From Lentzea aerocolonigenes (lineage in GTDB: Bacteria > Actinomycetota > Actinomycetes > Mycobacteriales > Pseudonocardiaceae): a stretch of 64,000 nucleotides of DNA. The stretch is from positions 434,001 through 498,000 of the forward strand of contig NZ_BBOJ01000002.1 of assembly GCF_000974445.1 (NCBI RefSeq). Direction: 5' to 3'. This document shows positions 36,167 through 49,181 of this stretch, piece by piece; the stretch's first letter is position 1; every line of letters begins with the position of its first letter. The position numbers and the translations under genes are program-made. The notes under the pieces were generated by a model. It saw nothing but the letters and a program-made list of their open reading frames with translations. It was not told the origin of the DNA and did not search any database.

Positions 36167-37183
36167 ATGACCGAGACGGCGAAGCGACGTCCCGGCACCC
36201 GGATCGAAGAGGTCGCGCGGGTGGCCGGGGTGTCGAAGTCGACCGTCTCGCGCGTGATCAACGACGAGCAGTACGTCAGCGCCAAGTCGCGCGAGGCCGT
36301 GCACGCCGCCATCGCGCAGCTCGGCTACAGCCCGAACCAGGCCGCACGCGCGCTGGCGGGCAACCGCGCCAACGCGATCGCCCTCGTCGTCTCCGAGCCG
36401 ACCGGCCGGGTGCTGGGCGACCCGTTCTTCGCGGGCGTCCTGCGCGGGGTCCACTCGGAACTGGCCGGGCGGCACATGCAGCTGCTGCTGATGATGACCC
36501 AGCCGTCGGACACCGAGGACCTGGTCACGTACCTCAGCAGCGGGCACGTCGACGGCGCGCTGCTGGTGAGCCTGCACGGCGAGGACCCGCTGGTCCCGAT
36601 GCTCGACGAGATAGGCCTCCCCGTCGTCTCCGGTGGCCGCCCGCTCGGGGCGACCGTGCCGTTCGTGGACGCCGACAACTTCACCGGCGCGCTCGAAGCC
36701 GCGCGGCATCTGGCCTCGCTGGGCCGCAAGCGGATCGCCACCGTGGCCGGCCCGAAGGACATGGCCGTCGGCGCGGACCGCCTGAGCGGGTTCAAACGCG
36801 GGCTGAGCGAGGCCAAACTCCCCTCCGGCCTCGTGGCACACGGCGACTTCACGCCGGAAAGCGGCGCCAAGGCGATGGAACGGTTGCTGCGCAAGGCCCC
36901 CGACCTCGACGCGGTGTTCGTCGCCGCGGACATCATGGCCCTGGGCGCGCTCCAGGTCCTGCACGCGCACGGCAAGCGCGTCCCGGAGGACGTGGCCGTG
37001 GTCGGGTTCGACGACTCGGTGTTCGCCGCGACCGCGACGCCGCCGCTGACGACGATCCGGCAGGACGTCGAGGAGCTGGGCCGCACGATGACGTGGCGGC
37101 TGCTCGCGGAGCTGGCGGGCGAGGCGGGACTGCCGCCGTCGCTGCTGCTGCCGACGTCGCTCGTCCGTCGGGCGAGTGCCTGA
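36167..37183 (+). CDS. LacI-family transcriptional regulator
   Basis: A 338-residue regulator. The N-terminal helix-turn-helix reads VARVAGVSKSTVSRVIND and the hinge NQAARALAG, followed by the periplasmic-binding-type sugar domain (DGALLVSLHGEDPLVPML, VVGFDDSVFAATATPPLTTI). It likely represses a sugar gene in the absence of ligand. Candidate sites are the TTTGCAG/CTGCAAA palindromes before the GH13 gene at 40258. The gene is divergent from the SARP gene. Confidence 0.93.
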   Translation: MTETAKRRPGTRIEEVARVAGVSKSTVSRVINDEQYVSAKSREAVHAAIAQLGYSPNQAARALAGNRANAIALVVSEPTGRVLGDPFFAGVLRGVHSELAGRHMQLLLMMTQPSDTEDLVTYLSSGHVDGALLVSLHGEDPLVPMLDEIGLPVVSGGRPLGATVPFVDADNFTGALEAARHLASLGRKRIATVAGPKDMAVGADRLSGFKRGLSEAKLPSGLVAHGDFTPESGAKAMERLLRKAPDLDAVFVAADIMALGALQVLHAHGKRVPEDVAVVGFDDSVFAATATPPLTTIRQDVEELGRTMTWRLLAELAGEAGLPPSLLLPTSLVRRASA

Positions 37184-38171: not shown

Positions 38172-38870
38172 GTGGAGATGCCGGAGGAGATCGTGCACGC
38201 GGTCGGCGCGGACGCGGTGTGGTCGGCTGACCACGAAGGAATGTCCGGCGAGACGTGGCGGGCGGGTTCCTGTTACGTGAAGCGCGCGGGGTCGGCCGAA
38301 CGCGACCGGTTGTTGTGGCTGGGCAAGCACTTCGAAGTGCCCGAGATCCGGGCGTTCGCGGACGGCTGGCTGGTCCTGGCGGACGTCGGCGCCCCGTCGC
38401 TCGCCTCCGCGGAACCGGTGGTGGCCGGATCCGTCATGGGCGCGGTGCTGCGCGCACTGCACTCGTTACCGGTGGCGTCGTGCCCTTATGACGCAAGGAT
38501 TCCTGTTGTGCTGGAAACGGCCAGGCGCAACGTCGAGGCCGGTCTCGTGGACCCGGACGACTTCGACGACGACAACCGCGGTGTCACAGCTGAGGAACTG
38601 CTGGAGCGGCTGGTCGCGACGGCTCCGGACGAACAGGACCTCGTCGTGGCGCACGGGGACTTCTGCCCGCCGAACGTGCTGCTGCGCCCGGACGGCTCGA
38701 CCGTGCTGATCGACGTGTCGCGGCTGGGCGTGTCCGACCGGCACCGCGACCTCGCGCTCGTGCACCGGGAACTGGACGAGGAGGCCGCAACCGCGTTCGA
38801 GCGCGCCTACGGCCTCGTCCCCCGCCCGGACAGGCTCGAGTGGTACCGGTTGCTCGACGAGTTCTTCTAA
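38172..38870 (+). CDS. APH-family phosphotransferase (aminoglycoside kinase-like)
   Basis: A 232-residue kinase-fold protein. It has the APH(3')-like catalytic loop VVAHGDFCPPNVLL and the metal-binding segment VLIDVSRLGVSDRHRDLAL, with an end EWYRLLDEFF very like APH(3') enzymes. At 232 residues it is about 30 shorter than classical APH(3'); the N-lobe is compact (GETWRAGSCYVKRA holds the probable ATP-binding Lys). It could confer aminoglycoside resistance or phosphorylate another small hydroxylated compound. GTG 38172 or ATG 38178 may be the start. Confidence 0.82.
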   Translation: MEMPEEIVHAVGADAVWSADHEGMSGETWRAGSCYVKRAGSAERDRLLWLGKHFEVPEIRAFADGWLVLADVGAPSLASAEPVVAGSVMGAVLRALHSLPVASCPYDARIPVVLETARRNVEAGLVDPDDFDDDNRGVTAEELLERLVATAPDEQDLVVAHGDFCPPNVLLRPDGSTVLIDVSRLGVSDRHRDLALVHRELDEEAATAFERAYGLVPRPDRLEWYRLLDEFF

Positions 38871-39610
38871 CCGCGCTCGTACGGCGTCTTCTCGCCCGCC
38901 TCGACCGCGAACGGCAGCCGGTTGCCGGCAGGCGGCAGCGGGCAGGTGGCGAAGTCGGTGAAGGCGCACGGCAGGTTCGTCGCGCGGTTGAAGTCGAGGA
39001 CGACCCTGCCGTCCACCGGGGTCGCCGCCAGCGACCGGTTCGCCGCGTACGTGGTGACGCCGCTCGTCTCGTCGGTGAAGAGGATGTTCAACCCGCCGTT
39101 GCGACCGTTGAACGCCGTGAGTCTGTGTTCGGTGCCGTTGAAGCTGAACCGCACACGACCCGGTGCCTCGTACACGTGACTAAGTCCTTCCACGACCGCA
39201 CCGACGGTCGTGGGGATGGGTGCGTCGAACGGCTCGTATTCACCCTCCAGCACCCACCGTTCTTGTGGTTCGTACGACGGCACGCCGCGGAAGTTCTGGA
39301 GCACCTCGGCCTTCGGGTCGTGCACGCGGATCAGGTACCCGCCGCGCCGCGCGATCTCGATCTCGACGTCACCCGCCTCGACGCGCGTGCCGGGACCGCT
39401 CTGGACGAGTTCGAACCGCTGCGGTTCGCCATCGTCCTGCCAGTACGCGGCGTCGTCGTCTTGCCACCACACGCCCGGTAGGCCGTCATAGGCGCGTGGG
39501 GTGGTTTCCAGCCAGTCGAGTGAAACCAACGCCAGCCACCCGTACGGGTCGGCCAGTGCCTTCTCCCGCTCGGTCTTCCAGGTCTGCCAGTCCTGCGCGA
39601 AGCCGCTCAT
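38867..39610 (-). CDS. DUF1684 domain protein
   Basis: A 247-residue DUF1684 protein: opening FAQDWQTWKTEREKALADPY, then GWLALVSLDWL and the Cys/Pro-rich end DFNRATNLPCAFTDFATCPL. Function is unknown. The ATG at 39610 starts 50 bases downstream of the last tRNA of the attenuated tRNA operon, same strand, and no terminator is seen between them, so it may be part of that transcript. The longer frame to 39775 would run through tRNA-Cys and is not credible. Confidence 0.88.
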   Translation of the reverse strand: MSGFAQDWQTWKTEREKALADPYGWLALVSLDWLETTPRAYDGLPGVWWQDDDAAYWQDDGEPQRFELVQSGPGTRVEAGDVEIEIARRGGYLIRVHDPKAEVLQNFRGVPSYEPQERWVLEGEYEPFDAPIPTTVGAVVEGLSHVYEAPGRVRFSFNGTEHRLTAFNGRNGGLNILFTDETSGVTTYAANRSLAATPVDGRVVLDFNRATNLPCAFTDFATCPLPPAGNRLPFAVEAGEKTPYERG

Positions 39611-39660
39611 GGTCGTGCCAACGACCGGCGCGCGGACCGGCTTCCCCGTTCCACTCCTTG

Positions 39661-39731
39661 AGACCCACCTGGGAGTCGAACCCAGTGTCAACGCTGTTGC
39701 AGAGCGTTTCACGACCGTCGTGACGTGGGTC
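39661..39731 (-). tRNA. tRNA-Cys (GCA)
   Basis: A 71-base cloverleaf read by hand. Acceptor GACCCAC/GTGGGTC; anticodon stem ACGCT/AGCGT with loop CTGCAAC (anticodon GCA); T arm CTGGG-TTCGACT-CCCAG; discriminator T73, the base expected for Cys. The D arm is compact (CACG-ACGGT-CGTG, five-base loop). CCA is not encoded. Last tRNA of a four-tRNA array controlled by a leader-peptide attenuator. Confidence 0.85.
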
Positions 39732-39735
39732 GGGC

Positions 39736-39806
39736 ATCGCGCGTCCTGGTGTCGAACCAGGCACTCCGGGCTCATGAGACCCGAATGACCACCGGATCAC
39801 GCGCGA
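39736..39806 (-). tRNA. tRNA-Met-like (CAT), non-canonical
   Basis: A 71-base cloverleaf. The acceptor can form eight pairs (TCGCGCGT with ACGCGCGA). The anticodon stem is CGGGT/GCCCG with loop CTCATGA (anticodon CAT), and the T arm CCTGG-TTCGACA-CCAGG. The D arm is short (GATC-CGGT-GGTC). If the outermost pair is trimmed the discriminator is A73, as in tRNA-Met. CAT could also be a lysidine-modified Ile tRNA, but the leader peptide with two Met codons favours Met. Only 4 bases separate it from tRNA-Cys. Confidence 0.75.
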
Positions 39807-39809
39807 TGG

Positions 39810-39883
39810 GGTGACCGACCGGACTCGCACCGGCTTCGACCAGGACCACGACCTGGCGCCTCGACTGCTTCGGCTTCGGTCAC
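39810..39883 (-). tRNA. tRNA-His-like (GTG), non-canonical
   Basis: A 74-base cloverleaf. Acceptor GTGACCG/CGGTCAC with C73, the His discriminator; anticodon stem CCAGG/CCTGG with loop TCGTGGT (anticodon GTG). Several universal features deviate: base 33 is C instead of T, the T loop reads TGCGAGT instead of TTCxAxx, the D loop lacks GG, and the G at -1 usual for tRNA-His is T. It may still be aminoacylated since acceptor and anticodon identity elements remain. It is separated from tRNA-Gln by 2 bases. Confidence 0.7.
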
Positions 39884-39885
39884 AG

Positions 39886-39958
39886 CTGCCCGTCGAGGAC
39901 TCGAACCTCGATCTCCGCGTCCAGAGCGCGGCGTCCGTGCCGATTGGACCAACGGGCA
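39886..39958 (-). tRNA. tRNA-Gln (CTG)
   Basis: A 73-base canonical cloverleaf. Acceptor TGCCCGT/ACGGGCA with G73 as in Gln; D arm GTCC-AATCGGCAC-GGAC; anticodon stem CCGCG/CGCGG with loop CTCTGGA (anticodon CTG); T arm CGAGG-TTCGAGT-CCTCG. First tRNA of the array; its 5' base lies two bases after the T run of the attenuator terminator, so it can be transcribed from this promoter only by readthrough. Confidence 0.9.
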
Positions 39959-39960
39959 AC

Positions 39961-39997
39961 AAAAAAGCCGCCTCGTCGCTGCGGCGACGGGACGGCT
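39961..39997 (-). terminator. Intrinsic terminator (attenuator) in front of the tRNA array
   Basis: On the minus strand, arms at 39997-39984 (AGCCGTCCCGTCGC) and 39979-39966 (GCGACGAGGCGGCT) pair over 14 positions with two wobble-type mismatches and a 4-base loop, followed immediately by TTTTTT (39966-39961). This is a textbook Rho-independent terminator between the leader ORF and tRNA-Gln. Its three basal pairs are shared with the competing hairpin at 39995-40032. Confidence 0.88.
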
Positions 39998-40032
39998 CCC
40001 CGGAAGGCACGGATCAACTCATGCCGGGGAGC
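39995..40032 (-). promoter_or_regulatory. Competing hairpin (candidate antiterminator)
   Basis: Arms 40032-40024 (GCTCCCCGG on the minus strand) and 40003-39995 (CCGGGGAGC) form a perfect 9-bp stem over a 20-base loop. The 5' arm lies inside the last codons of the leader ORF (TGC TCC CCG), and the 3' arm overlaps the terminator's 5' arm by 3 bases. A still earlier small stem (AGCAC 40044-40040 with GTGCT 40034-40030) competes with it. The three structures are mutually exclusive as in trp/his-type attenuators. Confidence 0.7.
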
Positions 40033-40063
40033 ACCAGACGTGCTGATGACACATGTGCTGCAT
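40019..40063 (-). CDS. Leader peptide of the tRNA operon (Met/Gln/His/Cys-rich)
   Basis: A 14-codon ORF, MQHMCHQHVWCSPA, with codons ATG CAG CAC ATG TGT CAT then CAG CAC GTC TGG TGC TCC CCG GCA and TGA. It is preceded by GGAGGAAGGAG 9 bases upstream; an in-frame GTG at 40066 is an alternative start. The first eight residues use only Met, Gln, His and Cys, the four amino acids whose tRNAs (CAT, CTG, GTG, GCA) follow. Two alternative hairpins start within its 3' end. It is best read as a regulatory leader whose translation speed reports the charged state of those tRNAs. Not similar to any leader I know by sequence. Confidence 0.82.
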   Translation of the reverse strand: MQHMCHQHVWCSPA

Positions 40064-40098
40064 CACGGCTGGCTCCTTCCTCCGGTTCGTTGAGATCC

Positions 40099-40128
40099 AC
40101 TCTGACGGATGGCGCCGCACGGCCGCAA
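40099..40128 (-). promoter_or_regulatory. Candidate promoter of the leader/tRNA operon
   Basis: Minus strand TTGCGG (40128-40123), 18-base gap, CAGAGT (40104-40099), a fair match to house-keeping -35 and TAnnnT -10 boxes with one -10 mismatch. It would give a 5' leader of roughly 25-30 bases before the leader ORF. A weaker alternative -10 (TAATGC) sits at 40135-40130. Assigned by eye only. Confidence 0.35.
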
Positions 40129-40142
40129 CGCATTATTCGGGC

Positions 40143-40158
40143 CTGCAAAAGTTTGCAG
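40143..40158. promoter_or_regulatory. LacI-type operator palindrome
   Basis: CTGCAAAAGTTTGCAG has perfect 7-bp arms around two bases, the form of LacI/MalR-type sugar operators in actinomycetes. A related imperfect site (TTGCGGAAAACTTTTGCAA) lies at 40195-40213. Together they flank the likely promoter of the GH13 alpha-glucosidase gene, and the first is also upstream of the divergent tRNA operon. Confidence 0.6.
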
Positions 40159-40194
40159 AACATCAGCTTCTTCTTTAGTAAACCTCAAGCCGAC

Positions 40195-40213
40195 TTGCGG
40201 AAAACTTTTGCAA
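40195..40213. promoter_or_regulatory. Second LacI-type operator-like site
   Basis: TTGCGGAAAACTTTTGCAA is an imperfect palindrome sharing the CTTTTGCA half with the site at 40143-40158. It lies 45 bp before the GH13 start codon, a usual repressor position. Confidence 0.45.
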
Positions 40214-40257
40214 CGTCTTTCCTGGAGCGCTGACACACCCCATCGGAAGGCATGGAC

Positions 40258-41817
40258 ATGTCCCAGGACTGGTGGCGCCACGCCGTCATCTACCAGGTCT
40301 ACGTGCGCAGCTTCGCCGACTCGAACGGCGACGGCACCGGTGACCTGCCCGGCATCCGCTCGCGTCTGCCCTACCTCCGCGACCTGGGCGTCGACGCCGT
40401 CTGGATCACACCGTTCTACGCCTCGCCGATGGCCGACGGCGGCTACGACGTGGCGGACTACCGCGCCGTCGACCCCCAGTTCGGCGGACTCGACGACGTG
40501 CGCGCGTTGGTCGCCGACGCGCACACGCTCGGCATCCGGGTGATCGTCGACATCGTGCCGAACCACAGCTCCGACCAGCACGAGTGGTTCCAGGAGGCGC
40601 TGGCCGGACGTGGCCGCGAGCGCTACATCTTCCGCGAGGGCGTCGGCGACCAGCCGCCGAACGACTGGGAGTCGGTCTTCGGCGGACCGGCGTGGACGCG
40701 GGTCGAGGACGGCTCCTGGTACCTGCACCTGTTCGCGCCCGAGCAGCCCGACCTGAACTGGGACCTGCCGGAGGTGCGCGCGGAGTTCCGCGACGTGCTG
40801 CGGTTCTGGCTGGACCTCGGCGTCGACGGCTTCCGGGTCGACGTGGCCCACGGGATGATCAAGGCGCCCGGCCTGCCGGACATCGGGCACGCGGACCAGC
40901 TGAAGCTGCTGGGCACGGAGCCGTTGCCGTTCTTCGACCAGGACGGCGTGCACGACATCCACCGCGAGTGGCGCGAGGTCGTCGACTCGTACGAGGGCGA
41001 GCGCGTCCTCGTGGCGGAGGCGTGGACACCGTCGGCCGAGCGCACGGCGATGTACCTGCGCGCGGACGAGATGCACCAGGCGTTCAACTTCCACTACCTG
41101 ACCGCGGAGTGGAACCACGACGCCCTGCGCTCGGTGATCGACTCGTCCCTGGCGGCAGTGGCCCCGGTGGGCGCCCCTACTACGTGGGTGCTCTCGAACC
41201 ATGACGTGCAACGGCACGTGACGCGCTACGGCGGCGGAGAAACCGGCGTGCGCCGAGCGCGCGCTGCCCTGGCGTTGATGCTGGCGTTGCCGGGATCGGT
41301 CTACCTGTACCAGGGCGAGGAACTCGGCCTCCCCGAAGTGCTGGACCTGCCCGACGAGCTGCTCCAGGACCCGATGTGGGAGCGGTCCGGTCACACCGAA
41401 CGAGGCCGCGACGGCTGCCGGGTGCCGCTCCCGTGGACCACCTCGGGCCCCTCTCTCGGCTTCGGCACCGGCGGCTCGTGGCTGCCGCAGCCGCTCGACT
41501 GGGCGAAGCTCAGCGTCGAGGCGCAGACCGGCGACCAGGACTCGATGCTGTCCTTCTACCGCAACGCTTTGCGCGTGCGCCGCGAGCACCCGGCCCTGGG
41601 CGCGGGCGACGGCGTCACGTGGGTGGACGGCCCCGAGGGCGTCCTGTGGTTCGAGCGCCGCGCCGAAGACCGCGGCATCGCCTGCGCGGTGAACCTCTCC
41701 GGCGAGGTGGTGCCCCTGCCCGACCTGGGCGCCGCCCTGCTGGCCTCGTCGTACTACGGCGTGCGCGACGGCCAGCTGCTCCTCCCGCCGGACACAGCGG
41801 TCTGGTGGGAGCTCTGA
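40258..41817 (+). CDS. GH13 alpha-glucosidase
   Basis: A 519-residue cytoplasmic GH13 enzyme of the oligo-alpha-glucosidase type. It opens WWRHAVIYQVYVRSFADSNG with the calcium-like DSNGDGTGDL loop. Catalytic regions are VDIVPNHSSD, GVDGFRVDVAHG (nucleophile Asp), VLVAEAWT (acid/base Glu) and VLSNHDVQRH (third Asp). It releases glucose from maltose or related alpha-glucosides. ATG 40258 is preferred as GGAAGG stands 7 bases upstream; an ATG at 40252 also exists. LacI-type operators precede it, and the sugar importer at 22776-27463 would supply substrate. Confidence 0.93.
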   Translation: MSQDWWRHAVIYQVYVRSFADSNGDGTGDLPGIRSRLPYLRDLGVDAVWITPFYASPMADGGYDVADYRAVDPQFGGLDDVRALVADAHTLGIRVIVDIVPNHSSDQHEWFQEALAGRGRERYIFREGVGDQPPNDWESVFGGPAWTRVEDGSWYLHLFAPEQPDLNWDLPEVRAEFRDVLRFWLDLGVDGFRVDVAHGMIKAPGLPDIGHADQLKLLGTEPLPFFDQDGVHDIHREWREVVDSYEGERVLVAEAWTPSAERTAMYLRADEMHQAFNFHYLTAEWNHDALRSVIDSSLAAVAPVGAPTTWVLSNHDVQRHVTRYGGGETGVRRARAALALMLALPGSVYLYQGEELGLPEVLDLPDELLQDPMWERSGHTERGRDGCRVPLPWTTSGPSLGFGTGGSWLPQPLDWAKLSVEAQTGDQDSMLSFYRNALRVRREHPALGAGDGVTWVDGPEGVLWFERRAEDRGIACAVNLSGEVVPLPDLGAALLASSYYGVRDGQLLLPPDTAVWWEL

Positions 41818-41867: not shown

Positions 41868-41908
41868 CCGTGGACATCAGCTTCCGACCGGATTCAGGGG
41901 GTTCAGCA

Positions 41909-44900
41909 GTGCGCAGGTGGGAGCTCGTCGCGGGCGGTTCCGCGAAGTTCTGGGAGATCGGCCGCACCGGCACCGAGGTGACCGTCCGCTTCGGACGGCT
42001 GGGCACCGCCGGCCAGACCCAGACGAAGGAACTGACCTCAGAGGACGCGGCCGCCGCGCACGTCGCGAAGCTGGTGGCGGCAAAGGAGAAGAAGGGCTAC
42101 CAGAGCGTCGCCACGACGGCCGCCGAACCTGCCGCAGCCCCCGCGCCGCCCGCCCAACCGACCCCAGCAACCGCACCGCCCACCGCACGACTCGCCCAAG
42201 CTTCCGCGGCCACCACGCCGACGCTCACCGGCCCTCCCGCGCCGACCACGCCGCGTCTCGCCGCAACATCCACCCAGCCTCCCGCGGCCACCACGCCGCC
42301 GTCCGCATCTCCCACTGCGGCCACCGCTCCACCCGCGGCATCTCCCGCAGCCACCACTCCACCCGCGGCACCTCTCCCAGCGGCCACTCCACCCACCGCA
42401 CCTCCCACAGCCACCACCCCACCCGCGGAACCTCCCACAGCGGCCACCCCATCTCCAGCCTCCCCAGTCACCCCTCCCCCAGACGAGGAAACCTGGATCA
42501 TGCCGGCGGAGTGGCTCCGCCAGGCCATGCGCCGAAGAGACGTCAGACCGTGGCCGAAGTTCGCGCCCGACCCCACCAAGGCGCAGGAGTTCCGCGCCCA
42601 CATCACCACCCAGACCGCCAGGATCGACGAGGTCCTCACCCACCCGTCGTCCCACCAGGCCCTCGTCCGCGCACTGCGCGACCAGCTCGAAGGCCGCCCC
42701 GACCCGCTGGGCGCCGCCACCCTGGCCAGGGTGGCCGAAACCGAGGACTCGCCGCTGCACTGGTGGATCGAGGAGTTCGGCCTCCCGTTCGCCGCCGCGG
42801 CGGCCGTGCACCTCGCGACGGTGCACGTCAACAACTGGAAGGACTGGCAGACCCAGAACTGGTTCGGCAACCACCTGAACCACTCCCTGCCGCACCACCT
42901 CTCCGAAGACACCTTCGAGGGCCGCGCGCTGGTGCTGGCCAGGACCGCACTCGCCGTGACCGACGACGAGACCTACGAGCAGACCCTGGTGGAGCTCGAC
43001 AAGGTCGGCACCACCTGGTTCGGGCAGGTGGCTCGCGCATTCCTCGCCCCGACGCGGCACGACTGGTTCGAGGAGGCGAACGCTGCTGAGCACGCGCCGT
43101 ACTGGATGGTGCACTGCGCGGCGAGCACGGCGGAGCAGCTCGGCCGCCTGCGCCAGGGGCACCTGATCTGGTCGCCGATCGGCATGTGCACCGCGATGTA
43201 CGTCCTGGGTCCCGCACTCGCACCGCTGCTGGACGCCGAGCTGCGCGCGAAGGTCGAGTGGGGCTCGGAGTGCCGCAAGTTGGCACTCGAGATGCTCGCC
43301 GCGCTGCCGACGGACCAGGCCTTCATGATGCTGCTGAACCGGTTGCGGGAACGGTACGTGCGGCCCGCGCTGCTGTCCGCGATGGCCGCGTTCCCCGCAC
43401 GGGCCGCGCGGCTGATGGCTCCCCGCGCCGCCACCGACCCGGACGTCCGCAACCTGTTGCGGGCGCACCTGCTCAGGCACCCCGGAGTCGAGGCGCCGGT
43501 CCAGTTGCCCGAACCGCTGCCGGACGCGCCGGCCTCGGCTCTGCCGCGGGTGCTGGCCGAACCGCCGTGGGCGCACCGGCGCCCGCTGCCGAAACCCTTG
43601 GTGCTGAAGGACGTCCCGGTGCCGGCAGCCCACCTGACGTGGCTGCCCGGCGAGCGCGAGGAGTGGGGGAAGCCCAGCGGCTATTGGACCGCGCGGGTCC
43701 ACGACTGGAAGGCCATGGCCGCGGCGATCCGGGCTCGCAACAACCGCTACCACGACCACGGGCTGTTCGTGGCGGGTCCTGAGGAGCTCGCCCTCCCGCT
43801 GCTCGCGGACTGGGTTCCCAGCGACACCTGGGGCAGCGAGCACTGGGGCAAGCGCATCACGGCCCGGTTCGGCATGGAGGCCCTGCCCGCGATGCTGCGC
43901 CTGGCCGCGCGGGATCCGCACGTGTCGGGTGTCGTTCTGCTGCCGTACGCGACGCCCGAGGTCGCGGACATGATGGCCGACTGGCTGGCGCGCCTCAAAA
44001 CCGCGCGCGCGTTCGCCATCACCTGGCTGGCCCGGCACCGCGAAGCCGCAGCCCGCCTCCTGCTGGCACCGGCCCTCGGCGTCGCAGGTCCCAGACGCCG
44101 CAACGCGGAGCTCGCGTTGCGCCACCTCCACCTGGAAACCGGTGTCGACGTCATCGCCGTCGCCACCTCCTTCAGCACCGAGGCAGGCGCCGCGATCCGC
44201 ACGCTCATCGAGATCGACCCGCTCGACGTCCTCCCGGCGAAGCTGCCGGTGATCGGCGACTGGGCCGACCTGAAGCTGCTCCCCCAGGTGCGGCTCGAGG
44301 ATGGTGCCACCGCGTTGTCCGCAGACGCCGCGAAAAACCTCCTGATGACCGCCGCACTGTCTAAACAGGACGCTATCTACCCCGGCCTGCCGCTGGCCGT
44401 GGAGGCGTGCGACCGCGCCTCGCTCGCCGAGTTCGCGTGGGCGGTCTTCGGGTGCTGGCAGGACGTGGACGCGCCGTCGAAGGACGCCTGGGTCCTCACC
44501 GCGCTCGGCTGGTTCGGCGACGACGAGACGGTGCGCCGCCTCTCGCCGCTCATCCGCGCCTGGCCGGGCGAAAGCCAGCACGCCAGAGCCGTCACGGGCC
44601 TCGACGTCCTCGCCCAGATCGGCAGCGAGGTGGCGCTGACCCACCTCAACAGCATCGCGGAGAGGGTGAAGTTCAAGGGCCTCAAGGCCCGCGCCCAGGA
44701 GAAGGTGTCCGACATCGCCGCCGCGCTGGGCCTGAGCCGCGACCAGCTGTCCGACCGCCTGGTTCCGCGCCTGGGCCTCGACGACGCCGCGACGCTGGTC
44801 ATCGACTACGGACCGCGTCAGTTCACCGTGGGCTTCGACGAGCAGCTCAAGCCCTACGTCCTCGACGCGGAAGGCAAGCGCCGCAAGGACCTCCCGAAGC

Positions 44901-45673
44901 CGGGCACCAAGGACGACCAGGAGCTGGCTCCCAAGGAGAACAAGCGCTTCGCCGCGTTGAAGAAGGACGTCCGCACCATCGCGTCCGACCAGATCCACCG
45001 CCTCGAACGGTCGATGGTCGACCAGCGCACGTGGACCGCCGAGGAGTTCCACACCGTCCTGGCCGGCCACCCGCTGCTCTGGCACCTGGTCCGCCGCCTG
45101 GTCTGGATCACCGACACAGGCCTCTCGTTCCGCCTGGCCGAGGACCGCACGCTCGCCGACGCCGAGGACGACGAGATCACCCTGCCCGGAGGCGCCACCG
45201 TCCGCGTGGCCCACCCGGTCGACCTGAGCGACACCCTCCAGACGTGGGGCGAGGTGTTCGCGGACTACGAGATCCTGCAACCCTTCGCCCAGCTCAACCG
45301 CCCGACGCACGCGTTCGCGCCCGGCGACAACGTCCCGCAGCTGGACAAGTACGTCGACCGGGTGATGCCGGTCGGCAGGGTCCTGGCCCTCACCAAGCGG
45401 GGCTGGGTCCGCGGCGAACCCCAGGACAACGGCTGCGAGTCGTGGATGACCCGCCCGCTCCCGTCCGGCGGCGCCCTGGTCGCGTGCCTCGATCCCGGCA
45501 TCACGGTGGGAATGGTGGACATGTTCCCCGAGCTGAAGTTCAGCTCGCTGTGGTTCTCGCCGAGCGGCGCAGGCAACTGGACCGCTCCCCGCAACGGCGG
45601 GCCCGCCCGCTTCGACGTGGACGCCGTCACCGCCTCCGAGCTCCTCGTGGAGCTGGAGTCACTGCATGCGTGA
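41909..45673 (+). CDS. WGR / DUF4132 protein, paralogue 1 (YehI-like)
   Basis: A 1254-residue protein. Residues 1-70 are a WGR domain (RRWELVAGGSAKFWEIGRTG, TVRFGRLGTAGQTQTKEL), a fold that binds DNA or nucleic-acid ends in PARPs. A 120-residue Pro/Ala/Thr linker made of imperfect repeats follows, then HEAT-like helices and, from about residue 930, a DUF4132 region (LGLDDAATLVIDYGPRQFTV, then FDEQLKPYVLDAEGKRRKDL). E. coli YehI and MolR have this architecture; their biochemical role is unknown. GTG 41909 has AGGGGG 8 bases upstream. It heads a conserved WGR-MoxR-DUF5682-VWA-SWIM locus. Confidence 0.88.
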   Translation: MRRWELVAGGSAKFWEIGRTGTEVTVRFGRLGTAGQTQTKELTSEDAAAAHVAKLVAAKEKKGYQSVATTAAEPAAAPAPPAQPTPATAPPTARLAQASAATTPTLTGPPAPTTPRLAATSTQPPAATTPPSASPTAATAPPAASPAATTPPAAPLPAATPPTAPPTATTPPAEPPTAATPSPASPVTPPPDEETWIMPAEWLRQAMRRRDVRPWPKFAPDPTKAQEFRAHITTQTARIDEVLTHPSSHQALVRALRDQLEGRPDPLGAATLARVAETEDSPLHWWIEEFGLPFAAAAAVHLATVHVNNWKDWQTQNWFGNHLNHSLPHHLSEDTFEGRALVLARTALAVTDDETYEQTLVELDKVGTTWFGQVARAFLAPTRHDWFEEANAAEHAPYWMVHCAASTAEQLGRLRQGHLIWSPIGMCTAMYVLGPALAPLLDAELRAKVEWGSECRKLALEMLAALPTDQAFMMLLNRLRERYVRPALLSAMAAFPARAARLMAPRAATDPDVRNLLRAHLLRHPGVEAPVQLPEPLPDAPASALPRVLAEPPWAHRRPLPKPLVLKDVPVPAAHLTWLPGEREEWGKPSGYWTARVHDWKAMAAAIRARNNRYHDHGLFVAGPEELALPLLADWVPSDTWGSEHWGKRITARFGMEALPAMLRLAARDPHVSGVVLLPYATPEVADMMADWLARLKTARAFAITWLARHREAAARLLLAPALGVAGPRRRNAELALRHLHLETGVDVIAVATSFSTEAGAAIRTLIEIDPLDVLPAKLPVIGDWADLKLLPQVRLEDGATALSADAAKNLLMTAALSKQDAIYPGLPLAVEACDRASLAEFAWAVFGCWQDVDAPSKDAWVLTALGWFGDDETVRRLSPLIRAWPGESQHARAVTGLDVLAQIGSEVALTHLNSIAERVKFKGLKARAQEKVSDIAAALGLSRDQLSDRLVPRLGLDDAATLVIDYGPRQFTVGFDEQLKPYVLDAEGKRRKDLPKPGTKDDQELAPKENKRFAALKKDVRTIASDQIHRLERSMVDQRTWTAEEFHTVLAGHPLLWHLVRRLVWITDTGLSFRLAEDRTLADAEDDEITLPGGATVRVAHPVDLSDTLQTWGEVFADYEILQPFAQLNRPTHAFAPGDNVPQLDKYVDRVMPVGRVLALTKRGWVRGEPQDNGCESWMTRPLPSGGALVACLDPGITVGMVDMFPELKFSSLWFSPSGAGNWTAPRNGGPARFDVDAVTASELLVELESLHA

Positions 45674-45731
45674 CGTTCCAGTTCTTTTTGATCGGCCAGC
45701 AAACTCCGGATCGGATTCAGGGGGTACGTCA

Positions 45732-48700
45732 GTGCGCAGGTGGGAGCTCGTCTCCGGCGGGTCGGCCAAGTTCTGGGAGGTGGGGACGGACGGGGTGACG
45801 GTCACCGTCCGCTTCGGACGGCTGGACACGGCCGGCCAGACCCAGACGAAGGAGCTCGCGTCCGCGGAGGCAGCCGAGGCGCACGTCGCGAAACTGGTGG
45901 CGGAGAAGGAGAAGAAGGGCTACCGCGCCGTCACCGGCGAGGCGTCCGAGCAACCTGTCGCCGCGCCCGCCGCGGAGAAGCCCGCCGCCGTCGACGAGGA
46001 CACCTGGGTCATGCCCAAGGCGTGGCTCAGGGATGTCGTGCGGCAGCGCGGCTTCGACCCGGCACCGGTCTTCGCCGTCGACGACGAGCTCGCAGCGACG
46101 GCCCGTCGCCGAGTGGGCAAGCAGACCGCGACCACGATCGAACGAGTGCTGTCCGATCCGGCCTCCGAACCGGATCTCGTGCGAGCCGCACGGGAACACC
46201 TCGCCGGCCGGCCCGATCCGGTCGGAGCGGCCGCGATCGCGGCGATCATCGCGAGCGGCCTGGAGTCCGTGCACGCCTGGATCGCCGACCACGGCGTCGT
46301 GTTCGCCGCCGAGGCGGCGGTTCACTTCACCGGCCTGGCCTCCGTCCCGACGTGGATTTCAAGCCAGCACACGTGGGGCGGCGAGCGGCTGCAGTCCCGT
46401 GGCAGCCACTTCCACATCATCTTCGACAGCGTCGAGGGCAAGATGCTCACGGCGGTTCGCTACGCGCTCGCGGTCGCGGACGACGCCGAGCGCGAAGCCG
46501 CCGAGGCCGCGCTGGACCGCCTCGGGGGCGCCAGTGCCAAGCTCTCCCGGGCGTACCTGGTGCCTTCCCGAGCCGACTGGTTCCAGCAGGCGTGCGACGA
46601 GCCGAACACGAACTCGCAGTGGTGGATGCTTCCCTGCAGTGCCGGCACCCAGGAGCAGTTCGAGCAGGTTCAGGCCACGGTGACCGCTCCCGCGTTCCTC
46701 CTGCACACGGCGCTCTACGTCCTGGGTCCGGCGGTCGCGCCGTTGCTGGCGGCGGAGCTCGACCGGAGCTACCAGCGTGCGGAGAGCCGCAAGCAGGCGT
46801 TGAAGGTGCTCGCGATGCTTCCCACCGACGAGGCCTTCACGATCCTGCTCGACCGCCTCGACACCAAGTACGTGCGCCCGGCGCTGTTGTCCGCCATGTC
46901 GGCGTTCCCGGCACGGGCCGCCCGGCTGCTGGCGGAGCGGGCATCCGCGAACGCCGAGGTCCGGCAGCTGCTGAGCGTGCACCTGACGACGCACTCGCAC
47001 CTGGAGGTGCCGGCAGGCTTCACCGCGATCGAGTCCGCCACGCTCCCGGAGGCCCCGGCGGAACTGCTGCCGTCGCTGCTGGTTTCGCCGCCGTGGGTGC
47101 ACCGCAAGCCGCCGGTGAAGCCCGTGGTGGTGCCAGATCTCCCGTCGCCGGCACCTTCGATCGTCTGGGAGCCGGGTGAGCGGGACGAGTGGCTCACGTC
47201 CGGCGACTGGAACACCCACGTGCCCTGGCAGGACCTGCTGGCGGAGTTCAAGGCGGGCCGGATCGGCTACCGCATGCGCGACCTGTTCGCCCAGGCTCCC
47301 GAGGACGAGGTGCGGCACCTGCTGGCCGGCTGGGAGCCGAAGCTCAGCTGGAGCGCCGAGGAAACGGGCAAGCTGCTGGCGGCCAAGTTCGGCTTCGACG
47401 CGCTGCCTCCGCTGCTGCGGATCGTCGAGTCGAACGCGAACACCGCCGTCGTCGTGCTGCCCTTCGCCACACCGGAAGTGGCCACCCTGATGGCGGACTG
47501 GCTGGTGCGGCTCAAGCAGGTGCGCAAGGTCGCGCTGGACTGGCTGTCGCGGCACCGCGAGACGGCGGCCCGTCTCCTCATCCCCGCCGCCCTGGGTCAG
47601 CCGGGAGCACCAAGGCGCAACGCCGAGACCGCCCTCCGCCACCTGCACGGCCTGGGAGTGAACGTGGTCGCGCTGGCACCGAATGCTGCGGCGGCCGCCG
47701 CTCTCCAGACCTTCCTGGCCGTCGACCCCGTCGACGTGCTGCCGGCCAAGCTGCCGGTGATCGGTGAATGGGCGGACACGAGGCTGCTGCCCCAGGTCCT
47801 CCTGAGCGACCGCAAGCACGCTCTTTCACCTGAAGCCGCTCACCACCTCCTGATGACGGCGGCCCTGTCCAAACCGGGTGACCTGTACGCCGGCCTGCCG
47901 GTGGCCCGCGACGCCCTCGACCGCGCCTCGCTCGCGGAGTTCGCGTGGGCTGTTTTCCAGCGCTGGCAGGAAGTGGGAGCGCCCTCGAAGGAAGGCTGGG
48001 CTCTCACCGCGCTCGGCTGGTTCGGCGACGACTCGACGGTCCGCGCGCTGTCGCCGCTGATCCGCAACTGGCCGGGCGAGAGCCAGCACGCCAAGGCCGT
48101 GACGGGCTTGGACGTCCTCGCCGACATCGGCACCGAGGTCGCCCTGTCCCACCTCAACAGCATCGCCGAGAAGGTGAAGTTCAAGGGCCTCAAGACAAGA
48201 GCCCAGGACAAGGTCTCGCAGATCGCCGCCGAACTGGGCCTGTCCCGCGACCAGCTGGCCGACCGCCTGGTCCCCCGCCTCGGCCTCGACGACGAAGCCT
48301 CACTGGTGATCGACTACGGCCCGCGCCGCTTCACCGTCGGCTTCGACGAGCAGCTCAAGCCCTACGTCCTCGACCCCGACGGCAAGCGCCGCAAGGACCT
48401 GCCCAAACCCGGCGCGAAAGACGCCCAGGACCAGGCACCACTGGAGCACAAGCGCTTCGCCGCCTTGAAGAAGGACGTCCGCACCGTGGCGTCCGACCAG
48501 ATCCACCGCCTCGAACGGGCGATGGTGGACCAGCGGACGTGGACCGCGGCCGAGTTCTACACGGTCCTGGCAGGCCACCCGCTGCTGTGGCACATCGTCC
48601 GGCGCCTGGTCTGGATCACTGACGAGGGCGTCTCGTTCCGCCTGGCAGAAGACCGCACCCTCGCCGACTCGAACGACGACGAGTTCACCCTCCCCGAGAC

Positions 48701-49181
48701 CGCCGCAGTCCGAGTGGCGCACCCGGCCGACCTCCAAGGCACGCTGGAAGCCTGGGGCGAGGTCTTCGCCGACTACGAGATCCTCCAGCCCTTCCCGCAA
48801 CTGAACCGCCCGCTGCACGTCGTGCCGCCGGACGAAGACCTGTTGGCACACCTGAAGAAGTACTGCGACGTGCCCCACCCCATCGGCAAGATCCTCAGCC
48901 TCACCAAGAAGGGCTGGGTCCGCGGTCAACCACAGGACGCAGGCGTCGAGTGCTGGATCACCCGCCCACTGCCCTCGGGCGGCGCCCTGATCGCCGACCT
49001 GGACCCCGGCATCGCGGTGGGCGCGATCGACGTCTTCCCCGAGGTCAAGTTCACCGGCCTCTGGTACTCGGCCACCGGCAGGGCCTACTGGTCCGTGCAG
49101 AAGGACGCGCCGGCCACCCTCCAGGTCGACCCGATCACCGCCTCCGAACTCCTCTCCGAGCTCGAGTCGCTCCACACGTGA
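45732..49181 (+). CDS. WGR / DUF4132 protein, paralogue 2
   Basis: A 1149-residue tandem copy of paralogue 1 with an N-terminal WGR domain (RRWELVSGGSAKFWEVGTDG) but only a short linker of about 25 residues. The C-terminal DUF4132 region is very similar (FDEQLKPYVLDPDGKRRKDL). It starts 58 bp after paralogue 1 with no promoter motif of its own, so it is probably co-transcribed. The GTG at 45732 is conserved in place with the other copies (VRRWELV). Confidence 0.88.
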   Translation: MRRWELVSGGSAKFWEVGTDGVTVTVRFGRLDTAGQTQTKELASAEAAEAHVAKLVAEKEKKGYRAVTGEASEQPVAAPAAEKPAAVDEDTWVMPKAWLRDVVRQRGFDPAPVFAVDDELAATARRRVGKQTATTIERVLSDPASEPDLVRAAREHLAGRPDPVGAAAIAAIIASGLESVHAWIADHGVVFAAEAAVHFTGLASVPTWISSQHTWGGERLQSRGSHFHIIFDSVEGKMLTAVRYALAVADDAEREAAEAALDRLGGASAKLSRAYLVPSRADWFQQACDEPNTNSQWWMLPCSAGTQEQFEQVQATVTAPAFLLHTALYVLGPAVAPLLAAELDRSYQRAESRKQALKVLAMLPTDEAFTILLDRLDTKYVRPALLSAMSAFPARAARLLAERASANAEVRQLLSVHLTTHSHLEVPAGFTAIESATLPEAPAELLPSLLVSPPWVHRKPPVKPVVVPDLPSPAPSIVWEPGERDEWLTSGDWNTHVPWQDLLAEFKAGRIGYRMRDLFAQAPEDEVRHLLAGWEPKLSWSAEETGKLLAAKFGFDALPPLLRIVESNANTAVVVLPFATPEVATLMADWLVRLKQVRKVALDWLSRHRETAARLLIPAALGQPGAPRRNAETALRHLHGLGVNVVALAPNAAAAAALQTFLAVDPVDVLPAKLPVIGEWADTRLLPQVLLSDRKHALSPEAAHHLLMTAALSKPGDLYAGLPVARDALDRASLAEFAWAVFQRWQEVGAPSKEGWALTALGWFGDDSTVRALSPLIRNWPGESQHAKAVTGLDVLADIGTEVALSHLNSIAEKVKFKGLKTRAQDKVSQIAAELGLSRDQLADRLVPRLGLDDEASLVIDYGPRRFTVGFDEQLKPYVLDPDGKRRKDLPKPGAKDAQDQAPLEHKRFAALKKDVRTVASDQIHRLERAMVDQRTWTAAEFYTVLAGHPLLWHIVRRLVWITDEGVSFRLAEDRTLADSNDDEFTLPETAAVRVAHPADLQGTLEAWGEVFADYEILQPFPQLNRPLHVVPPDEDLLAHLKKYCDVPHPIGKILSLTKKGWVRGQPQDAGVECWITRPLPSGGALIADLDPGIAVGAIDVFPEVKFTGLWYSATGRAYWSVQKDAPATLQVDPITASELLSELESLHT

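Follow-up and report, generated by a model that had tools for sequence, protein, structure and literature searches.

Organisation of the tRNA array and its leader

The window analysed here is a stretch of 64,000 nucleotides from Lentzea aerocolonigenes (contig NZ_BBOJ01000002.1, positions 434,001 to 498,000). Its minus strand carries, from 40066 to 39660, a Shine-Dalgarno sequence and leader ORF, an antiterminator, a terminator with a run of six T and tRNA genes for Gln, His, Met and Cys, in this order. All elements of the layout given in the original prediction (ribosome-binding site, ORF, hairpins, terminator and four tRNAs) were found in the sequence. The features and the evidence for them are listed below.

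40073..40078, minus strand: Shine-Dalgarno sequence AAGGAG, 6 nt 5' of the GTG start (sequence and leader rule)
40019..40066, minus strand: leader ORF GTG-MQHMCHQHVWCSPA-TGA, 15 codons and stop (sequence and leader rule)
40024..40032, minus strand: 5' arm of the antiterminator, GCTCCCCGG, within the ORF end (sequence, fold and pair counts in 35 arrays)
40006..40025, minus strand: apical stem of the antiterminator, including the stop codon TGA (fold, alignment and pair counts)
39995..40003, minus strand: 3' arm of the antiterminator, CCGGGGAGC (sequence, fold and pair counts)
39966..39997, minus strand: intrinsic terminator hairpin, AGCCGTCCCGTCGC...GCGACGAGGCGGCT (sequence, folding and covariation)
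39961..39966, minus strand: T-run of the terminator, TTTTTT (sequence)
39885..39958, minus strand: tRNA-Gln(CTG), divergent copy (ARAGORN; Rfam tRNA, 57.8 bits)
39807..39883, minus strand: tRNA-His(GTG) with encoded CCA (ARAGORN at 85% threshold, shifted register; cloverleaf from sequence)
39736..39806, minus strand: tRNA-Met(CAT) (ARAGORN default; no Rfam match)
39660..39731, minus strand: tRNA-Cys(GCA) (ARAGORN default; no Rfam match)

Translation of the leader most likely starts at the GTG at 40066, one codon upstream of the ATG from which a 14-codon ORF had been proposed, because this GTG is invariant in 23 of 23 Lentzea orthologs (the genome studied and 22 others), while the following ATG is replaced in four of them (by CTG, ATC, AGG and AGG). 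Counted from GTG, codons 2-9 encode exclusively Met, Gln, His and Cys, as had been claimed for the early part of the leader. Sequence and fold also agree with the earlier placement of the 5' arm within the end of the ORF and with the double use of the final three bases of the 3' arm, AGC, as the base of the terminator. The antiterminator had been described as a 9-bp hairpin; its arms are indeed 9 nt long and the hairpin as a whole is longer, since it continues into the apical stem.

Detection of the four tRNAs depended on the tool. ARAGORN with default settings reported Gln, Met and Cys, and His was obtained only after relaxing the threshold to 85%, and then in a shifted register, whereas we read its cloverleaf from the sequence as 39883-39810 plus CCA. 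In Rfam, both at E-values up to 1 and at gathering level, Gln was the only tRNA of this array to be reported, besides one chance match to a snoRNA. By the Rfam model, three of the predicted four are therefore weak. Scoring below the Rfam reporting level, the His, Met and Cys genes may be of doubtful function, His above all. Its T-loop reads TGCGAGT (G at 55) and its D-loop is devoid of the usual GG in the register reported here. By eye, position -1 is T or C and never G in 23 Lentzea sequences; the gene is nevertheless conserved. From these sequences, charging by HisRS appears questionable.

No Rfam family was named in the leader (38500-41500, E up to 1), and a simple promoter and terminator scan flagged neither element at the array. 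The terminator was accepted because folding and covariation support it. It should be added that two palindrome-like boxes, TTGCAAAAGTTTTCCGCAA and CTGCAAACTTTTGCAG, lie at 40150-40225, between the array and a divergent sugar-hydrolase-like ORF; they recur in most of the Lentzea sequences compared and probably belong to the hydrolase gene. An ORF of LacI type is located at 36167-37183. Further along the plus strand, two adjacent long ORFs (41870-45673 and 45666-49181) look like paralogs by eye and both start with VRRWELV...GGSAKFWE.

Conservation within Lentzea

The Gln-His-Met-Cys array is retained in 22 of 23 other Lentzea genomes, and the early codons of the orthologous leaders are mostly Gln, His and Met. 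The gene for tRNA-Cys is present in 8 of the 23 orthologs, all eight of which have an early Cys codon; in 14 of the 15 orthologs lacking tRNA-Cys this codon is missing as well, and L039 retains it. Loss of leader codons with the array kept, which was to be expected if the proposed link were wrong, was thus not seen. The association of Cys codon and tRNA-Cys is significant by Fisher test (p = 2e-5), but it counts as one event, because the tree shows a single change.

Arrays preceded by leaders in other genomes

Two further low-scoring tRNA arrays, each with leader, antiterminator and terminator, were found in the same genome. The C40 array encodes Arg Pro Phe Ser Ser Arg Asn and the C29 array Trp Gly Leu Leu Ala Ile; their leaders are MTSHEMRNLRLSSATACVRSCGRPGLRRPFSQVSSL and MLAKAELAGWRILALIAGGLLAVAWGSTP, respectively. 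The ordinary tRNA clusters C43, C36 and C19 of this genome were found by eye to have no such terminator.

The family was searched with the terminator pattern GGAGCCGYCC-N(8-28)-GGCGGYTTY, which matched 49 of 150 genomes, compared with 26 for the reversed pattern. A tighter version applied to 84,980 species genomes matched at least 117 stretches. Among the matches listed, 97 of 115 instances had a tRNA array downstream, and 95 of these 97 a leader. Among the 80 listed matches with a record title, an array was present in 65 of 71 family-type records, two of which bear titles of other genera, and in none of nine elsewhere. In the first set of instances an array was found in 75 of 87, a figure biased by the inclusion of loci chosen for having arrays, so that the count from 115 instances is the fairer; a rule blind to the tRNAs picked a leader in 73 of these 75 arrays. 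Left out of the counts were 12 instances without array and two without a rule-picked leader (of 87), and 18 and two (of 115).

At least one array with leader was found in Lentzea, Saccharothrix, Amycolatopsis, Kibdelosporangium, Actinokineospora, Actinophytocola, Actinosynnema, Allokutzneria, Crossiella, Pseudonocardia, Prauserella, Streptoalloteichus and Actinocrispum. Leader-controlled arrays of the Pseudonocardiaceae type were also seen in records titled Nocardia sp. NRRL S-836 (L220) and Rhodococcus rhodnii NRRL B-16535 (L251), titles that may be wrong.

Across 296 genomes of the class, the exact terminator pattern occurred at chance level (25 matched, among them the genome studied and one of the same family, versus 33 for the reversed pattern). 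Inspection of 28 loci from this search comprised three of the genome studied, two with arrays and one without; the other 25 yielded one single tRNA without leader and no leader-controlled array. In a second family of the same order, inspection by eye revealed leader-controlled arrays of 5-16 tRNAs in four of five genomes (L327, L328, L329, L330, L332 and L333, in genomes G092, G070, G498 and G505; not seen in G083). The leaders of this family are long and mutually similar, and the terminator is without the GGAG start. We therefore abandoned the claim that the arrangement is restricted to Pseudonocardiaceae, as the second family shares the layout with a different start of the terminator. No convincing leader was seen at L078 or at L079, which may belong to the downstream end of the L329 array. 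A search with the C40 array matched 125 of 150 genomes of the order, mostly at ordinary tRNAs, and was not used. The search of relatives recommended in the original prediction has in this manner recovered the arrangement in Lentzea, in other genera and in a second family.

Leaders match the amino acids of their own arrays

Leaders were chosen from position, start codon and Shine-Dalgarno sequence only, blind to the tRNAs. The array Glu Leu Leu Gln Ser Lys Cys is preceded by the leader MKSKLECQSAKLELSLELDRLLV, Arg Ser Ser Arg by MTSMRRHSRRSSSSSTGSPP and Arg Cys by MTNTRRCCSRSPGSPP. With arrays permuted among 35 leader clusters, the match (observed 6.75, null sd 0.605, z 11.2) was not equalled in 100,000 permutations. 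The named set of 43 clusters, from which duplicates (168 to 124) and one-tRNA arrays (47 to 43 clusters) had been removed, gave z 12.0, reached in none of 20,000 permutations. The value of z depends on the identity cut used for clustering, being 15, 12, 7.7 and 5.8 at 0.7, 0.55, 0.5 and 0.45; at 0.4 everything falls into one cluster and permutation is impossible.

In the 43 clusters, 43% of leader residues belong to the amino-acid set of their own array and 25% to the sets of other arrays. More than half of the residues are hence not array amino acids; the window array, for instance, lacks tRNAs for the Val and Trp codons of its leader. The deviation had the expected direction for 20 of 20 amino acids in this set, with p<0.05 for 17 of them (not for Gly, Asn and Thr). 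The early leader codons of Lentzea are mostly Gln, His and Met, in line with the original prediction, and the rule extends beyond it in that the leaders of different arrays match their own tRNAs.

The match could in principle be accidental or due to base composition, the leader being a chance ORF or one for a functional small peptide. Lone short ORFs near tRNAs are easily found, relaxed ARAGORN settings yield false tRNAs (41 in 39 kb, on both strands), and one antisense frame of the leaders does reach z 2.3. Against this, the match is strong in one reading frame only (z 11.1 in the leader frame, -1.7 to 2.3 in the other five), the permutations contradict an accidental match, and the hairpins covary. 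DNA just upstream of the leaders gave z -0.9 to 1.4, and base composition does not explain the match, because neither the other frames nor this upstream DNA shows a strong one. Position within the leader tells against chance as well: counted back from the stop, codons -7 to -18 are enriched about 2-fold and codons -19 to -39 about 1.4- to 1.7-fold, and the last six codons show no enrichment (about 0.9), as would be expected if the hairpin binds those codons as the antiterminator arm. We consider a chance origin barely credible.

Matching of codons to anticodons within an amino acid was also considered and rejected, as the agreement is weak with hints in both directions. TTG makes up 1 of 6 Leu codons with Leu-CAA arrays and 0 of 54 otherwise, AGA 1 of 4 with Arg-TCT arrays and 0 of 68 otherwise, and GAA 5 of 7 with Glu-TTC arrays and 1 of 6 otherwise; CCA, on the contrary, occurs in none of 17 Pro codons with Pro-TGG arrays.

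Predicted competing hairpins and candidate promoters

Most of the 35 cluster representatives have an ORF whose 3' end is able to pair with GGGAGCC, the stop codon lying within the apical stem, and antiterminator and terminator are mutually exclusive through the shared AGC(C). Cells of the antiterminator are paired in 85.5% of cases in the 35 arrays, compared with 81.5% after shuffling and 33-45% with slid partners. Its covariation is 0.201 versus 0.131 in shuffled data (0/500 as high), with 23 double changes versus 9.4; double changes are spread over four pairs, which is unexceptional (93/500), and further pair types are not strongly exceptional either (40/500). The terminator is 96.7% paired, with covariation of 0.170 versus 0.093 (0/500). 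Both hairpins exceeded shuffled data in the covariation check proposed at the outset. On average, the arms of a leader pair better with each other than with swapped arms (a result matched by 25 of 20,000 permutations), but they lie above the swapped mean in only 23 of 35 cases and are best of all in three.

Equilibrium folding of the full leader end, U-tract included and the 5' arm free, favoured the terminator (means of 0.78 versus 0.22 for the antiterminator). After this failure to favour the antiterminator, a second fold without the U-tract was run, ending at the first T. With the arm free, it gave means of 0.51 for the terminator and 0.46 for the antiterminator, the latter exceeding 0.5 in 20 of 47 clusters; the values for the window itself were 0.66 and 0.32, and shuffled arms reduced the antiterminator to 0.05. 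Without the U-tract (47 clusters), the antiterminator had a mean probability of 0.46 when the ribosome edge was placed 21 nt ahead of the stop, and of 0.02 when it was placed at the stop itself. The 135-nt MFE fold of the window leader retains the terminator. Since equilibrium folding favours the terminator, antitermination would need kinetics, and the computed folds point to a poised switch that would be decided during transcription. The control codons are set for a logic of stalling and covering, as seen in the match at -7 to -18, the stop within the stem and the computed effect of occlusion.

For promoters, a first expression, TTGA[ACG]-TANNNT, matched none of 47 leaders. The pattern was altered post hoc after inspection of about seven sequences, and the resulting post hoc pattern, TTGA-(18-20 nt)-NATNNT, precedes 22 of 47 leaders, with 0.3 expected by shuffling and none on the reverse strand. 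Seventeen of the 22 lie 27-35 nt before the start; in the window the distance is an implausible 92 nt.

Array tRNAs as a divergent second set

The genome encodes 72 tRNAs, 55 of them housekeeping and 17 in the three arrays (His and Ala only at the relaxed ARAGORN setting). No anticodon occurs twice among the 17 array tRNAs, and all 17 anticodons are also represented among the housekeeping genes. Identity to the housekeeping tRNA of the same anticodon is 54-75%, His being compared in the shifted register of ARAGORN. In 14 of 17 the anticodon loop differs from that of the housekeeping copy, the sole reference for this count; eight of these loops differ by a single base. The tRNA-Leu(CAG) and (GAG) genes of the C29 array (L062 728-876) measure 74-75 nt versus 83-86 nt in their housekeeping copies; the housekeeping Leu(CAA), (TAG) and (TAA) genes of this genome are likewise short (75-77 nt).

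An anticodon was shared in 1 of 33 pairs of arrays within genomes versus 305 of 670 pairs between genomes, and none of 20,000 permutations was as low. This count covers 16 genomes, 14 of them with at least two arrays, including congeners that are not independent and some incompletely annotated arrays; the C40 array and the Leu-Leu-Gln array of G056, unmatched by the pattern, were added by hand. The arrays look like a partitioned reserve set. The same partition by anticodon, together with the many amino acids covered, is at odds with a use of the array tRNAs as amino-acid donors for tRNA-dependent secondary metabolism, with the leader merely keeping their level low. Such a use is suggested by the richness of these families in natural products and by the known existence of tRNA-dependent peptide enzymes; the ORFs beside the window array, inspected by eye, give no hint of it, and we regard it as highly improbable.

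Captured phage tRNA arrays, either relics or tools for lysogeny or superinfection and with the leader as inherited phage regulation, would be another source of such genes. The tRNA-Gln of the window array is 89% identical over 72 nt to a copy in Rhodococcus phage RGL3, and its tRNA-His 81% over 79 nt to one in Gordonia phage Sixama. This similarity is not specific, because housekeeping Gln and Glu tRNAs of the same genome also match phages, at up to 88%, and an argument for phage origin from tRNA similarity was rejected on this control. Three arrays, one of them with its leader, were used as queries against phages, and no phage record covers 80% of any of them (at most 20% among the matches listed). 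By annotation, no leader precedes the tRNAs in three phage regions, and the array is retained through the genus Lentzea. We hold a phage origin to be improbable.

Relation to known regulatory systems

Ribosome-mediated transcription attenuators are known from trp, his, leu, ilv and pheST. The present leaders resemble them in having a short ORF with control codons set back from the arm, competing hairpins and a stop inside the arm. They differ in standing before tRNA genes rather than genes for biosynthesis or synthetases, in reading several to many array-matched amino acids with one leader, and in having only two hairpins. T-box riboswitches, which bind tRNA directly and need no ORF, share with them the input of tRNA charging and the output through antiterminator and terminator. 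No T-box match was obtained in Rfam at 38500-41500 with E up to 1, and at gathering level only tRNA was reported at eight array loci, including that of the window.

In Streptomyces, attenuators have been described before leuS, trpS, alaS, thrS, leuA, trpE, ilvBHC and metN (PMC8079986). Those before leuS, trpS, alaS and thrS are comparable in that actinobacterial leader peptides gate the supply of charged tRNA; they gate synthetases with one amino acid each, and none of the eight cases named there precedes tRNA genes. Regarding the cargo, it has been proposed that changes in their anticodon loops let phage tRNAs evade the anticodon nucleases of the host (PMC10264068), and T5 phages provide a tRNA-Tyr that counters a retron effector degrading this kind of RNA (PMC11555353). 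The arrays would resemble these phage genes in supplying replacement tRNAs, and differ in being chromosomal, conserved and placed behind a leader that would read the need, a switch that the abstracts of these two papers do not mention. By this analogy, the reserve arrays may represent the cell's own, inducible version of phage rescue tRNAs.

In agreement with the earlier claim of no previous description, a literature search, judged by titles and the starts of abstracts and with subscription papers and most preprints outside its scope, gave no paper on attenuators of tRNA genes among the matches listed. As far as we found, the multi-tRNA target, the matched leaders for several amino acids and the partitioned reserve set are new; the type of switch is already known.

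Proposed mechanism and trigger

The locus combines a short ORF with ribosome-binding site, control codons matched to the array, mutually exclusive hairpins and the codon placement of an attenuator. Judged from these sequence features, the leader and hairpins of the window probably form a ribosome-mediated transcription attenuator that would turn the array on when charged Gln, His, Met and Cys tRNAs are scarce.

While RNA polymerase copies the leader, a freely moving ribosome would reach the stop inside the antiterminator and cover the 5' arm, so that the terminator can fold. Stalling of the ribosome at a codon for Gln, His, Met or Cys, which in the window means 7-14 codons ahead of the stop, would leave the 5' arm free; the antiterminator could then claim the pairs at the base of the terminator, and the array would be transcribed. 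New array tRNAs would restore translation of the leader, closing a negative feedback. An equivalent switch, with other amino acids, is predicted to control each of the other arrays, giving each genome several arrays of different anticodons that together may constitute a divergent reserve set. The trigger in this scheme would be the loss of tRNA itself, for example through anticodon nucleases that act as toxins, come from competitors or take part in phage defence.

Leaders of this kind are established as sensors of tRNA charging, and an attenuator serving ordinary control by amino-acid supply or growth rate, with extra tRNAs tuning codon supply in slow growth or development, has to be weighed against this trigger. 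Classical attenuators sense charging rather than tRNA loss, and those of Streptomyces precede synthetase genes (leuS, trpS, alaS, thrS) and biosynthetic operons (PMC8079986). On the other side, a single leader spans several unrelated amino acids, and the reserve tRNAs have diverged strongly, in most cases with changes in the anticodon loop. More tRNA, moreover, should not raise charging if the amino acid is missing. We hold such ordinary control to be unlikely, though it is a serious contender. Loss of the tRNAs themselves is the likely natural trigger, since plain starvation for an amino acid would not be eased by additional tRNA genes and since the anticodon loops of the reserve tRNAs in this genome are mostly altered.

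The wider reading is that these bacteria keep a silent second set of tRNAs, nearly non-overlapping over several operons, each gated by a ribosome sampling the encoded tRNA species, as an inducible and self-limiting repair that answers tRNA-destroying toxins and phage defence by a regulation not described before. We give this reading an even chance. If true, how well ribosomes can translate the codons of a given amino acid would determine, separately for each amino acid, the transcription of the corresponding tRNA genes, which would close a direct feedback loop on the translation apparatus. A group of antibiotic-producing bacteria would then possess an inducible tRNA reserve, a natural parallel to phage rescue tRNAs, and would offer a ready test bed in which each leader names the tRNA losses it is to report.
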